Assembly: GCF_012952295.1 (NCBI RefSeq)
Contig: NZ_JABBCH010000002.1
Coordinates: 62,001-126,000 of the forward strand
DNA: 64,000 nucleotides
DNA from: Crystallibacter degradans
GTDB taxonomy: Bacteria; Actinomycetota; Actinomycetes; Actinomycetales; Micrococcaceae
Direction of reading: 5' to 3'
Under the pieces are notes generated by a model. That model was not told the origin of the DNA and searched no databases. It was given only the letters and a program-made list of their open reading frames with translations. This document shows positions 21,340-24,835 of this stretch, one piece after another; the first letter of the stretch is position 1; every line of letters starts with the position of its first letter. Made by a program: the position numbers and the translations under genes.

Positions 21340-21714
21340 CTACTTGGGTTCGGCCAGCACTCCGGCCAGGTTGTCCAACGCTCCCGGCACAAGCGAGAAG
21401 TAGGCCCAGACGCCGCGCTTCTCCCGGCGGAGGATGCCCGCATCGACCAGGACCTTCAGGTGGTGGGACACCGTGGGCTGGCCAAGGTCCAGCGGCTCGA
21501 TCAGGTCGCAGACGCAGGCTTCCGCCCCTTCGCTGGCCGAGATGATCGAGATCAGGCGCAGCCGGTTTGGATCAGCCACTGCCTTGAACTGTGCCGCCAG
21601 CGCGGCGGCGCGCTCGGTACTCATGACCGGCGCTCCGGCCGGGGTGCAGCAGGCAGCCTCGGGCTCGATTGGGCCGCTTGCCGGAGCAGCCGGCAGTTCA
21701 GTAGTGGACGTCAT
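21340..21714 (-). CDS. arsR: ArsR/SmtB-family arsenic-responsive repressor
   Basis: A 124-residue winged-helix repressor. The recognition helix is QPTVSHHLKVLVDAG. Two thiol clusters could bind As(III): a vicinal Cys22-Cys23 in the N-terminal arm and Cys67/Cys69 in EACVCDL, the canonical ArsR metal motif. The N-terminal Cys pair recalls the Corynebacterium glutamicum ArsR site. Metal binding would release the operator and switch on the divergent acr3-arsC genes. I chose ATG 21714; ATG 21723 (MVGM) is an equally possible start. Confidence 0.93.
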   Translation of the reverse strand: MTSTTELPAAPASGPIEPEAACCTPAGAPVMSTERAAALAAQFKAVADPNRLRLISIISASEGAEACVCDLIEPLDLGQPTVSHHLKVLVDAGILRREKRGVWAYFSLVPGALDNLAGVLAEPK

Positions 21715-21735
21715 GCCAACCATTATGCACAGAGA

Positions 21736-21765
21736 TTGACACTCGTCGATATTTCCGGCCATACT
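21736..21765 (+). promoter_or_regulatory. Promoter of acr3-arsC operon
   Basis: A perfect -35 TTGACA (21736-21741), an 18-bp spacer and CATACT (21760-21765) as -10. The start site would fall near 21772, just before the operator dyad. Confidence 0.65.
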
Positions 21766-21777
21766 CGGAACCGATAA

Positions 21778-21797
21778 ACATCGATTCCCTTCGATGT
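21778..21797. promoter_or_regulatory. Probable ArsR operator
   Basis: ACATCGA (21778-21784) and TCGATGT (21791-21797) are perfect 7-bp arms around a 6-bp spacer. The dyad lies just downstream of the acr3 -10, where a bound repressor would block transcription. ArsR-family operators are imperfect dyads of this size, so the assignment rests on position and symmetry. Confidence 0.6.
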
Positions 21798-21852
21798 CTG
21801 CGCACCGGCAAGCCCGGCGCCGCAGCCAGCCGCATTCATGCCGAGGAGCTAC

Positions 21853-22965
21853 GTGAGCACCCCTGTCGCAACACCCGAAACCCGTCAGGTCAGCGCCCGG
21901 CTCTCCACGCTGGATCGCTTCCTCCCCGTCTGGATCATCGCCGCCATGGCGGCAGGCCTGTTGCTGGGCCGTTTCATCCCCGGGCTGGCCGGCGCGCTGG
22001 ATGCGGTCCAGGTAGCGGATGTCTCGCTGCCTATCGCCGTCGGGCTGCTGGTGATGATGTACCCTGTGCTGGCCAAAGTCCGCTACGACGAAACCCACCG
22101 CGTGATGGCGGACAAAAAGCTCATGGTCAGCTCGCTGGTGATCAACTGGCTCGCCGCCCCGGCCTTCATGTTCGTCCTGGCCTGGATCTTCCTGCCCGAC
22201 CTGCCCGAATACCGCACCGGCCTGATCATCGTGGGGCTCGCCCGCTGCATCGCCATGGTCATGATCTGGAACGACCTGGCCTGCGGCGACCGCGAAGCCG
22301 CGGCGGTGCTGGTGGCGATCAACTCCGTCTTCCAGGTCATCGCGTTCGGCGCGCTGGGCTGGTTCTACCTGCAGCTGCTGCCCTCCTGGTTGGGACTGCC
22401 CACCACCAGCGCCGAATTCTCCTTCTGGGCCATCACCGCCAGTGTCCTGGTCTTCCTCGGGATCCCGCTGCTGGCCGGCTTCCTAACCCGTACCGTCGGT
22501 GAAAAGGCCAAGGGCCGCGACTGGTACGAGAATAAGTTCCTGCCCAAGCTCGGCCCCTGGGCACTCTACGGCCTGCTGTTCACGATCGTGCTGCTGTTCG
22601 CCCTGCAGGGCGACGAAATCACCTCCAACCCGCTGGACGTCGCCCGGATCGCGCTGCCGCTGCTGGTCTACTTCTCCGTGGTCTTCGGAGCCGGCATGGT
22701 GATCGGCAAACTCCTGAACATGGGCTACGCACGAACCACCACGCTGGCGTTCACCGCAGCCGGGAACAACTTCGAACTGGCCATTGCCGTGGCGATCGGC
22801 ACCTACGGCGTCACCTCCGGGCAGGCGCTGGCCGGCGTCGTCGGTCCGCTGATCGAGGTTCCGGTCCTGGTGGCCCTGGTCTACGTAGCGCTTTGGGCAC
22901 AGAAGAAATACTGGCCAGCAGCCACCCCCGCACTTTCCGCGCCTATCGAAGGACAGACGAAGTAA
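21853..22965 (+). CDS. acr3: Arsenite efflux transporter, ACR3 family
   Basis: A 370-residue, ten-helix membrane carrier that exports arsenite using the membrane potential. Family segments include GLARCIAMVMIWNDLACGD with the essential conserved Cys and TAAGNNFELAIAVAIG. An ATG at 21838 is in frame, but GAGGAG lies 4 bp before GTG 21853, so I chose the GTG. The gene is head-to-head with arsR and its stop overlaps the arsC start (TAATG), so both are cotranscribed. Confidence 0.94.
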   Translation: MSTPVATPETRQVSARLSTLDRFLPVWIIAAMAAGLLLGRFIPGLAGALDAVQVADVSLPIAVGLLVMMYPVLAKVRYDETHRVMADKKLMVSSLVINWLAAPAFMFVLAWIFLPDLPEYRTGLIIVGLARCIAMVMIWNDLACGDREAAAVLVAINSVFQVIAFGALGWFYLQLLPSWLGLPTTSAEFSFWAITASVLVFLGIPLLAGFLTRTVGEKAKGRDWYENKFLPKLGPWALYGLLFTIVLLFALQGDEITSNPLDVARIALPLLVYFSVVFGAGMVIGKLLNMGYARTTTLAFTAAGNNFELAIAVAIGTYGVTSGQALAGVVGPLIEVPVLVALVYVALWAQKKYWPAATPALSAPIEGQTK

Positions 22966-23408
22966 TGACCACAGACGCAGAATCCACTGCTAAGAAGCCG
23001 TCCGTCCTCTTCGTCTGCGTCCACAATGCGGGACGTTCGCAGATGGCCGCTGCCTACCTGACGCATCTGGCCAAGGGCGCCATCGACGTCCGTTCCGCCG
23101 GATCCCAGCCCGCGGACCAGGTGAACCCTGCCGCCGTCGAGGCGATGCGCGAAGAGGGCATCGACATCTCGGCCGAACTTCCCAAGGTTCTCACCACCGC
23201 GGCCGTCAAGGACTCCGACGTCGTTGTCACCATGGGCTGCGGCGACGAGTGCCCCTACTTCCCTGGCAAGCGCTACGAAGACTGGGTGCTGGAGGATCCG
23301 GCCGGCAAGGGCGTGGACTCCGTCCGCCCGATCCGGGACGAGATCAAGGGCCGCATTGAAATGCTGATCTCCGAGTTGCTGCCCGCAGCTCATCCCGACG
23401 CGAGCTAG
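22965..23408 (+). CDS. arsC: Arsenate reductase, low-molecular-weight phosphatase type
   Basis: A 147-residue enzyme that reduces arsenate to arsenite for export by Acr3. The P-loop Cys18-x5-Arg24 reads VCVHNAGRS, and the general-acid loop is WVLEDPAGK. Additional Cys92 and Cys96 in MGCGDECPYFPG match the resolving-cysteine region of thioredoxin-linked ArsC, while many actinobacterial homologues use mycothiol; which reductant applies here cannot be told. The ATG overlaps the acr3 stop by one base. Confidence 0.95.
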   Translation: MTTDAESTAKKPSVLFVCVHNAGRSQMAAAYLTHLAKGAIDVRSAGSQPADQVNPAAVEAMREEGIDISAELPKVLTTAAVKDSDVVVTMGCGDECPYFPGKRYEDWVLEDPAGKGVDSVRPIRDEIKGRIEMLISELLPAAHPDAS

Positions 23409-23419
23409 AGGAGGAAGCC

Positions 23420-24835
23420 ATGCCTGACAAGGCCGTTCCCACCGCTGTAGCGGAACTTCCCGTAGTCGTCATCGGGGCTGGGCCGGTGGGCCTGGCTGCC
23501 GCGGCCCACTTGCTGGAGCGCGGACTGAGGCCGGTCATCTTCGAAGCAGGAACCGTGCCCGGTGCGGCTATCCAAGCCTGGCGCCATATCCGGCTCTTCT
23601 CGCCGTGGCGGTTCAATATCGACGCCGCCTCCCGCCGGCTGCTCGAGGCCACCGGCTGGGAGGAACCGCGGCCGACCTCGCTGCCTTACGGTGCGGATCT
23701 CATCGAGCGGTACCTCGAGCCGCTGGCAGCTGTCCCGGCCATCCGGGATGCCCTGCACACCTCCTCCCGGGTGATCGCCGTCAGCCGGGCAGGCCTGGAT
23801 AAAACCCATTCCCGCCGCAGGGACGAGACGCCGTTCCTGGTCAGGGTGCAGGACGCTTCCGGCACGGTGGCCGACCACCTCGCCCGCGCGGTGATCGATG
23901 CCTCCGGCGCCTGGGACCGGCCCAACCCGCTCGGCCAGGCCGGACTGCCCGCACCCGGCGAAGCGGAGGCCATCGCCACCGGACACATTACCGAGCCGCT
24001 GCCCGATGTTACCGGCGGAGACCGTGCGCGGTTCGCCGGAAAACACATCCTCGTGGTGGGGGCCGGTCATTCGGCTGCCAACACTCTGCTCAACCTCGGC
24101 CAGCTGGCCAGGAACGAACCCGGCACTAGAATCAGCTGGGCAGTGCGCGGTGCCGACGTAACCCGGCTCTATGGCGGCGGCGACCTGGACGGGCTCCCCG
24201 CCCGCGGCCAGCTCGGCACCAGGCTGCGCAAACTGGTGGAAGACGGCCACATCGAGCTGCACGCCTCGTTCACCATCACGGGCTTCAAGACCGCGGACAC
24301 CCTCGCCGTTTTCGGGACCACGCCCGACGGCGACGCGCAGCTGGACGTGGACGTGCTGATCCCGGCCACGGGCTTCCGGCCCGACCTGGACATGCTGCGC
24401 GAACTCCGGCTCGAGCTCGATCCCGCCGTGGAGGCGCCCCGCCAGCTGGGCCCGCTGATCGATCCGGAGTTCCACAGCTGCGGTACGGTGCCGCCGCATG
24501 GCGCCAAACTGCTGGCCCACCCCGAGAAGGACTTTTACCTCGCCGGAATGAAATCCTACGGCCGGGCGCCGACCTTCCTGCTGGCCACCGGCTACGAACA
24601 GGTCCGCTCCGTCGCAGGCGCCATCGCCGGGGACCGGGAAGCTGCTGACAAGCTGCACCTGGAGCTGCCCGAAACCGGCGTCTGCACCACGGACCTGGCG
24701 GGGAGCTGCGACGCACCCGCGGCCGTTACCACCTCTGGCGCGGAAGAAGAAGCCTGCTGCGCGGCTCCCGAACCGGCCTTCCTCGGCATCCCCACCGGCC
24801 TGGTCCACGGACGCTCCGTAACGCCAGGGGGGTGA
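23420..24835 (+). CDS. FAD-dependent oxidoreductase of arsenic operon, Cys-rich C-terminal tail
   Basis: A 471-residue flavoprotein with two dinucleotide folds: VVVIGAGPVGLAAAAHL at the N-terminus for FAD and HILVVGAGHSAANTLLNLG near residue 210 for NAD(P)H. Fold and layout resemble flavin monooxygenase/thioredoxin-reductase-like proteins frequent in actinobacterial ars operons (ArsO/ArsT-like); the reaction is not established. The last 50 residues carry a Cys-rich tail (CTTDLAGSC, then EEEACCAAPEPAF) that could bind trivalent arsenic. AGAGGAGGAAG precedes the ATG, 11 bp after arsC, so it is the third gene of the operon. Confidence 0.85.
   Translation: MPDKAVPTAVAELPVVVIGAGPVGLAAAAHLLERGLRPVIFEAGTVPGAAIQAWRHIRLFSPWRFNIDAASRRLLEATGWEEPRPTSLPYGADLIERYLEPLAAVPAIRDALHTSSRVIAVSRAGLDKTHSRRRDETPFLVRVQDASGTVADHLARAVIDASGAWDRPNPLGQAGLPAPGEAEAIATGHITEPLPDVTGGDRARFAGKHILVVGAGHSAANTLLNLGQLARNEPGTRISWAVRGADVTRLYGGGDLDGLPARGQLGTRLRKLVEDGHIELHASFTITGFKTADTLAVFGTTPDGDAQLDVDVLIPATGFRPDLDMLRELRLELDPAVEAPRQLGPLIDPEFHSCGTVPPHGAKLLAHPEKDFYLAGMKSYGRAPTFLLATGYEQVRSVAGAIAGDREAADKLHLELPETGVCTTDLAGSCDAPAAVTTSGAEEEACCAAPEPAFLGIPTGLVHGRSVTPGG

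Follow-up and report, generated by a model that had tools for sequence, protein, structure and literature searches.

An arsenic resistance (ars) cluster of Crystallibacter degradans encodes two proteins that each carry a pair of adjacent cysteines, and the question raised by this locus is whether the two pairs belong together. The cluster lies within a stretch of 64,000 nucleotides (contig NZ_JABBCH010000002.1, positions 62,001 to 126,000; hereafter the window) from a genome assembly of 4.96 Mb in 124 contigs. One of the proteins is the repressor ArsR, with the motif EAACCTPAGAP in its N-terminal arm, and the other is a flavoprotein with EEEACCAAPEPAF in its C-terminal tail. A first-pass annotation, made from the sequence alone, had pointed out these motifs, both of which are present as written, and had offered a common element for binding or relaying trivalent arsenic (As(III)) as one explanation. 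We find that the Cys-Cys pair of the tail is conserved beyond chance; on the best reading, the two pairs came to the same chemistry by convergence and do not form one relay. We lean towards a model in which the flavoprotein is an ArsV-like oxidase whose tail serves as a thiol capture arm, with the ArsR pair as a separate, convergent inducer site.

Conservation of the Cys-Cys pair in the flavoprotein tail

To follow the tail across relatives, we used two samples. The first set consists of the window and 120 fetched regions (121 loci), in which 116 flavoproteins have LPxTGVC, or a closely similar stretch, as an anchor; this anchor is lacking in L141, which ends earlier, and in L169-L172, which are distant homologues of 34-38% identity. 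The wide set adds 80 named loci and ten plasmid records, and because the first set and the named loci have genomes in common, identical tails were merged, giving 206 anchored loci with 189 distinct tails. Among contigs from GTDB genomes, at least 590 stretches were collected, at least 581 of which encode a flavoprotein relative, and the best 80 became loci. Residue conservation was read from two alignments, A1 of 30 sequences and A2 of 67, in which 66 members share 51-72% identity with the window flavoprotein.

The window flavoprotein has five cysteines, at positions 354, 422, 430, 446 and 447. In its AlphaFold model the mean predicted local distance difference test score (pLDDT) is 86.4, and since only residues 423-471 fall under 50, C422 closes the ordered part and the C446-C447 pair sits in a tail predicted to be disordered. 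C354, C422 and C447 are invariant in A1, where C446 is kept at 90% or more; in A2, C446 is kept in 60 and C447 in 61 of the 67 sequences, and C430 in 21.

At least one Cys-Cys pair is present in 105 of the 116 first-set tails. When these tails were shuffled 2000 times, the number was 22.5 on average and never above 36; shuffling leaves the relatedness between sequences in place. The first-pass annotation had held that its proposal would fall if most orthologues lacked the tail cysteines; instead, 175 of the 189 distinct tails have a pair (one in 117, two in 39 and three in 19, so that 58 have two or three). The pair is the best-conserved part of the tail, the remaining tail columns having a mean top-residue frequency of 0.37 compared with 0.68 in the core, and in 49 of the 175 tails the last pair is four residues or fewer from the end. 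Tails with a pair span Actinomycetota, Proteobacteria, Chloroflexota, Gemmatimonadota and Verrucomicrobiota and include all ten non-actinobacterial tails among the 80 named loci; most proteobacterial tails looked at show a fuller pattern (CCGGPA, ACC, GCGC or GCSC).

At the DNA level, the word TGYTGY is common in the window (178 occurrences, 130 expected) and therefore carries little meaning by itself. In a set of 48 window genes called by program, which lacks arsR and hence gives no usable rate, the flavoprotein alone has Cys-Cys. The first-set tails contain 149 Cys-Cys pairs, 106 single cysteines and no CCC run, and in the wide set 53 of 252 pairs have at least one TGT codon. The missing CCC runs and the TGT codons led us to reject an origin by DNA repeat or slippage.

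A second conserved element, G-x-x-TG-x-x-HG (24785-24811 in the window), lies downstream of the pair in 97 of the 189 distinct tails.

The ArsR pair and the tail pair each occur without the other

The two proteins are unrelated, as the annotation had held. Window ArsR reaches 84.8 bits with NF033788 (cut-off 55) and matches PF01022, which makes it an ArsR/SmtB winged-helix protein, whereas the flavoprotein lies above the cut-offs of PF13738 and PF07992 and is a two-Rossmann flavoprotein. Among 164 distinct ArsRs scoring 80 bits or more, the two vicinal cysteines of the arm are conserved in 153 and 160. The best solved relative of window ArsR is 6j0e (8.4e-13), the arsenic-responsive ArsR of Corynebacterium glutamicum (CgArsR), which has a type 3 site. 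PMC11868830 names Cys15 and Cys16, together with Cys55 from the other subunit, as its As(III) ligands, and the sensor half of the earlier proposal is thus sound. The N-terminal pair of window ArsR falls at the same place in the alignment to 6j0e, but the GGCG cysteine of CgArsR, taken as Cys55, pairs with a glycine in this alignment, and the motif CVCDL follows a few residues on. For this reason we call the window protein type-3-like and not type 3. One or both of the CVC cysteines, C69 and C71, are likely to be further As(III) ligands, judging from the sequences.

Some loci encode unusually long ArsR open reading frames (ORFs) beside the flavoprotein (L153, L159, L162 and L195; 284-306 residues, the annotated one of L195 having 294), with two Cys-Cys pairs after the helix-turn-helix and a second half that looks N-acetyltransferase-like by eye only.

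To ask whether the two pairs go together, we counted ArsRs near the flavoprotein gene under two rules. In the first set, where an ArsR was counted only on the opposite strand, at 60 bits or more and within 4.5 kb, 101 of 121 loci have one, and the arm contains a Cys-Cys pair in 97 of these 101; the others are L060 (CSC), L148, L138 and L173. ArsR-like ORFs beside L153, L159 and L162 (31 to 44 bits, with no Cys-Cys in the N-terminal region shown) were entered as none under this rule. In the wide set any ArsR with an N-arm pair within 5 kb took precedence, a rule that favors association. Under it, the 175 tails with a pair are accompanied by an ArsR with an N-arm pair in 139 cases, by one with a C-terminal pair in 18, by one without a pair in six and by none within 5 kb in 12; for the 14 tails without a pair the numbers are six, zero, two and six. 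Across wide-set loci with an ArsR, Fisher's test gives p = 0.35. The first set gives p = 0.024, a value that depends on L138 and L173, which are closely related and have neither pair; kinship is uncorrected in both tests.

The ArsR pair is also found where the flavoprotein is not. Of the 51 genomes of the same bacterial family without a flavoprotein match at E 1e-40, 20 were examined, and 11 have ArsR matches, at 12 places. An arm with a Cys-Cys pair is present at nine of these 12 (L179-L187), the other three matches scoring under 50 bits, and the ArsR pair is therefore independent of the flavoprotein. In addition, ArsRs beside the flavoprotein in Nitrobacter, Rhizobium and Ensifer carry a C-terminal ECC in place of the N-arm pair. 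These results lead us to reject, on co-occurrence, one shared relay element.

Flavoprotein core and proposed role of the tail

Motifs for binding both flavin adenine dinucleotide (FAD) and NAD(P)H are present in the flavoprotein (GAGPVG from residue 19, GAGHSA from 214 and ATGFRPD from 316) and are largely invariant. No redox-active cysteine pair (CXXC or CXXXXC) is conserved in the core in A2, C354 and C422 being the only conserved cysteines ahead of the tail. In a fold comparison that covers about residues 8-424, with the tail outside, the nearest solved fold is that of the bacillithiol disulfide reductase YpdA/Bdr (Z 29.5, 2.9 Å over 319 residues), followed by flavin monooxygenases (Z 24.7), thioredoxin reductases (24.2) and N-hydroxylating monooxygenases (about 23). 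Taken alone, the modeled fold does not distinguish an oxidase from a reductase.

We consider that this flavoprotein family is probably ArsV, a flavin monooxygenase for which oxidation of trivalent organoarsenicals and antimonite has been reported. PMC11719878 cites ArsV as oxidizing organoarsenicals, with reference to a paper whose title describes a novel flavin monooxygenase, widespread among soil bacteria, that acts on organoarsenicals and antimonite, and PMC10080717 gives arsV as a methylarsenite oxidase. The flavoprotein would then be an NAD(P)H- and FAD-dependent enzyme that oxidizes methylarsenite (MAs(III)), antimonite (Sb(III)) and perhaps As(III) to a less toxic pentavalent form. C446 and C447, together with C422 at the root of the tail and perhaps C354, would bind the trivalent metalloid and hold it at the flavin site. 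The vicinal pair might be enough for MAs(III), and C422 might supply one more thiol where As(III) or Sb(III) is bound; in SpArsR a vicinal pair alone binds MAs(III), according to PMC11868830 and PMC13236881. In the repressor, the arm pair and one cysteine of CVCDL would form the inducer site. The multiplication of the Cys-Cys pair to two or three in some tails suits a binding arm better than a fixed relay. Were the tail such an arm, it would show how a cytosolic flavoenzyme takes up a metalloid otherwise bound by cell thiols, and C422, C446 and C447 would offer a test at the level of single residues.

Several observations weigh against this model. The closest fold is a thiol-disulfide reductase and no monooxygenase. 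Fourteen of the 189 distinct tails have no Cys-Cys pair, and the tail is almost absent in L124, L137, L138 and L226, among others, so the tail pair is not indispensable everywhere. ArsV was reportedly first described from Ensifer adhaerens ST2. In a table of PMC10080717, arsV appears alongside Paracoccus sp. SY and Escherichia coli, and E. adhaerens ST2 is paired with arsK only.

Among the alternatives, a redox relay has a small but real chance of being correct: reduced FAD would reduce a disulfide of the tail, and the tail dithiol would in turn reduce a partner, such as oxidized ArsC or a thiol-arsenate adduct. The C-terminal pair of high-molecular-mass thioredoxin reductase works as such a relay. 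The closeness to YpdA/Bdr and the thioredoxin reductases among the fold matches speak for this explanation, as does the position of arsC, which comes directly before the flavoprotein gene in the window and within about 95 bases before it in 86 of 211 loci. However, the core lacks a conserved CXXC or CXXXXC and conserves only C354 and C422, and tails that vary from 2 to 116 residues and from zero to three Cys-Cys pairs (first 116 tails) are loose for a relay. Moreover, in Ensifer, Rhizobium, Nitrobacter, Hydrogenophaga, Rhodococcus and Streptomyces sp. FR-008 records the flavoprotein gene is followed by that of a major facilitator superfamily (MFS) transporter and is not directly preceded by arsC.

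We consider it rather less probable that the tail is a passive sink for a trivalent metalloid or a metal, or protects the enzyme, without hand-over to the flavin. Multiplied Cys-Cys units with loose spacing would suit such a role, and neighboring ArsI and ArsD carry Cys-Cys tails too, but it does not account for the invariance of C422 and C354 in the folded part. A passage of arsenic between ArsR and the flavoprotein through one common element, the proposal of the first-pass annotation, is very improbable. Of the 189 tail entries, 139 do combine both pairs, and L138 and L173 have neither, yet each pair also occurs without the other, the wide set shows no association, and the pairs stand in different protein contexts, including the C-terminal ECC of some ArsRs. 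Least credible of all is the idea that the pair is there by chance, or has been retained neutrally, in a low-complexity tail of Ala, Pro, Ser and Gly, since, although the rest of the tail is variable and TGYTGY is common in window DNA, the pair far exceeds the shuffle maximum, is conserved across phyla and keeps its cysteines while the codons switch between TGC and TGT.

Organization and spread of the locus

The window cluster is divergent, with arsR on the reverse strand and acr3, arsC and the flavoprotein gene on the forward strand (Table 1). The start of arsR is a GTG at 21720 or alternatively an ATG at 21714. From its position between arsR and acr3, the inverted repeat may be the ArsR operator. 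The acr3 stop and the arsC start overlap by one base (TAATG), and 11 bases separate the end of arsC from the flavoprotein gene, whose start is preceded by GAGGAGG. Window ArsC scores below the cut-offs of all three NCBIfam ArsC models that it matches.

Table 1. Features of the ars locus, with positions counted in the window
Feature	Position	Strand	Basis or remark
arsR	21340..21720	-	ArsR/SmtB repressor; N-terminal arm with vicinal Cys pair, and CVCDL motif
ArsR CVC codons (C69, C71)	21508..21516	-	each kept in 164/164 distinct ArsRs
ArsR Cys-Cys codons (C24-C25 from GTG start), in EAACCTPAGAP	21646..21651	-	sequence
Candidate ArsR operator, inverted repeat ACATCGATTCCCTTCGATGT	21778..21797	.	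20 bases, between arsR and acr3
acr3, As(III) efflux permease	21838..22965	+	TIGR00832, 430.6 bits (cut-off 282.8)
arsC, arsenate reductase of low-molecular-weight phosphatase fold	22965..23408	+	PF01451, 1.7e-21
ArsV-like FAD/NAD(P)-binding flavoprotein (putative assignment), 471 residues	23420..24835	+	PF13738, PF07992, fold comparison
Core cysteine C354 (HSCGTV)	24479..24481	+	invariant, 67/67 (A2)
C422, end of folded core (LPETGVC)	24683..24685	+	invariant, 67/67 (A2)
C-terminal tail predicted to be disordered, residues 423-471	24686..24832	+	sole segment with pLDDT under 50
Tail Cys-Cys pair C446-C447, in EEEACCAAPEPAF	24755..24760	+	conservation in orthologues

With the window genome counted in both, 98 of 149 genomes in the bacterial family and 25 of 396 in the phylum have a flavoprotein match at E 1e-40. 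With tblastn at E 1e-30, relatives appear on 125 plasmid records, from genera that include Streptomyces, Rhodococcus, Cytobacillus, Rhizobium, Sinorhizobium and Paenibacillus; closer examination covered plasmid members outside Bacillota. Among the matches listed, acr3/arsC accompany the flavoprotein gene in many family loci. Other company is found elsewhere. In Ensifer and Rhizobium the MFS pump beside the flavoprotein scores above the threshold of the ArsK model (L196 and L199; 515 and 636 bits, threshold 400), and the neighboring pumps of L191, L192, L193 and L195 fall below it (152 to 228 bits). In Ensifer adhaerens M8 and E-60, an arsR-flavoprotein-arsK group lies near the annotated large subunit of an azurin-type arsenic oxidoreductase, and in Pseudomonas the flavoprotein is accompanied by arsN1, arsD and arsA. 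The flavoprotein gene directly precedes arsI in L154, L156 and L160, the ArsI/CadI of L154 (7871-8350) scoring 203.6 bits against a cut-off of 116. This ArsI/CadI itself ends in a C-terminal CC...CC tail, and similar ORFs are present in L156 and L160.

Possible small cysteine-pair modules beside the flavoprotein gene

In other genomes, an unannotated acidic micro-ORF of 12-23 residues, such as MTNGCCGDSGCCDDEDCC, lies directly upstream of the flavoprotein gene on the same strand. It occurs in 26 loci (L063, L113, L206, L208, L212-L214, L283-L286, L288, L290-L293, L295, L296, L298, L301, L302, L305, L306, L310-L312), with 21 distinct peptides that all end in Cys-Cys, and was not found in the window. 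Seven of these loci came from first scans and 19 from 33 further loci, namely 16 of 30 in a single genus, where 61 genomes were searched, 53 gave a match and the best 30 were taken, and all three Arthrobacter plasmid records examined. The three plasmid records show no coding sequence at the micro-ORF, their gene table being known to be incomplete. The micro-ORFs have a strong Shine-Dalgarno sequence, Cys-Cys pairs and acidic residues, and stop 34 to 132 bases upstream of the start assigned to the flavoprotein. Codon differences among them (62 synonymous, 186 non-synonymous) are close to what would be expected in the absence of selection. What stands out are the Shine-Dalgarno sequence and the Cys codons, yet both belonged to the search pattern. 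As regards a leader peptide, a partial look at 12 stretches downstream of the micro-ORF found no clear terminator with a T run. Three of the 12 (L213, L284 and L285) have very strong palindromes between micro-ORF and flavoprotein gene, predicted at under -50 kcal/mol within 100 nucleotides, which are perhaps mobile repeats.

In Actinomadura, three loci (L231, L233 and L234) share a similar CC...CC stretch, for example GSCCGVSACC, about 96-120 nucleotides before the flavoprotein start used; it may be an in-frame N-terminal extension with a putative start codon of its own.

The putative, unannotated cysteine-pair microprotein may be a metalloid carrier. A broader and decidedly speculative idea is that vicinal-Cys modules form a portable code of ars operons for the capture of trivalent arsenic. 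The code would comprise the disordered C-terminal tails of the flavoprotein and ArsI, the ArsR arms, the Actinomadura extension and free-standing acidic microproteins (12 to 23 residues, in Arthrobacter-type bacteria), the last serving as diffusible arsenic carriers for the enzyme.

Comparison with known systems

In MerA and high-molecular-mass thioredoxin reductase, a flexible C-terminal Cys pair presents substrate or relays electrons. The window flavoprotein likewise has a flexible C-terminal pair, but its family lacks the conserved redox-active pair of the MerA or class I disulfide reductase core, and its tail is long and predicted to be disordered, with a number of Cys-Cys pairs that varies across the family. 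YpdA/Bdr is the best fold match; membership was rejected at 49.9 bits with TIGR04018 (cut-off 339.9), and the window flavoprotein differs by its long extra tail.

ArsO is, like the window flavoprotein, an FAD/NAD(P) protein of ars clusters. The window protein scores only 56.4 bits with the ArsO model NF040505, against a cut-off of 425, and was rejected as a member. On plasmid pSSFR1 of Streptomyces sp. FR-008 (L191), a true ArsO and the tail-bearing flavoprotein share one ars cluster with a further FAD oxidoreductase. There ArsO reaches 554.1 bits and the flavoprotein-family neighbor 51.9, from separate genes 1.7 kb apart, and this ArsO has no Cys-Cys in its C-terminus. The flavoprotein family is thus set apart from ArsO, although both can occur in one cluster.

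With ArsV (Zhang et al. 2022; Chen et al. 2021) the family shares the character of a flavin enzyme of arsenic resistance that is common in soil bacteria. The window differs in that the partners of the flavoprotein gene are acr3 and arsC and not an MFS pump. The family lies in a context that fits ArsV, in ars operons with ArsR and often an efflux pump, and a member of this family stands in the arsR-flavoprotein-arsK group of E. adhaerens M8 and E-60.

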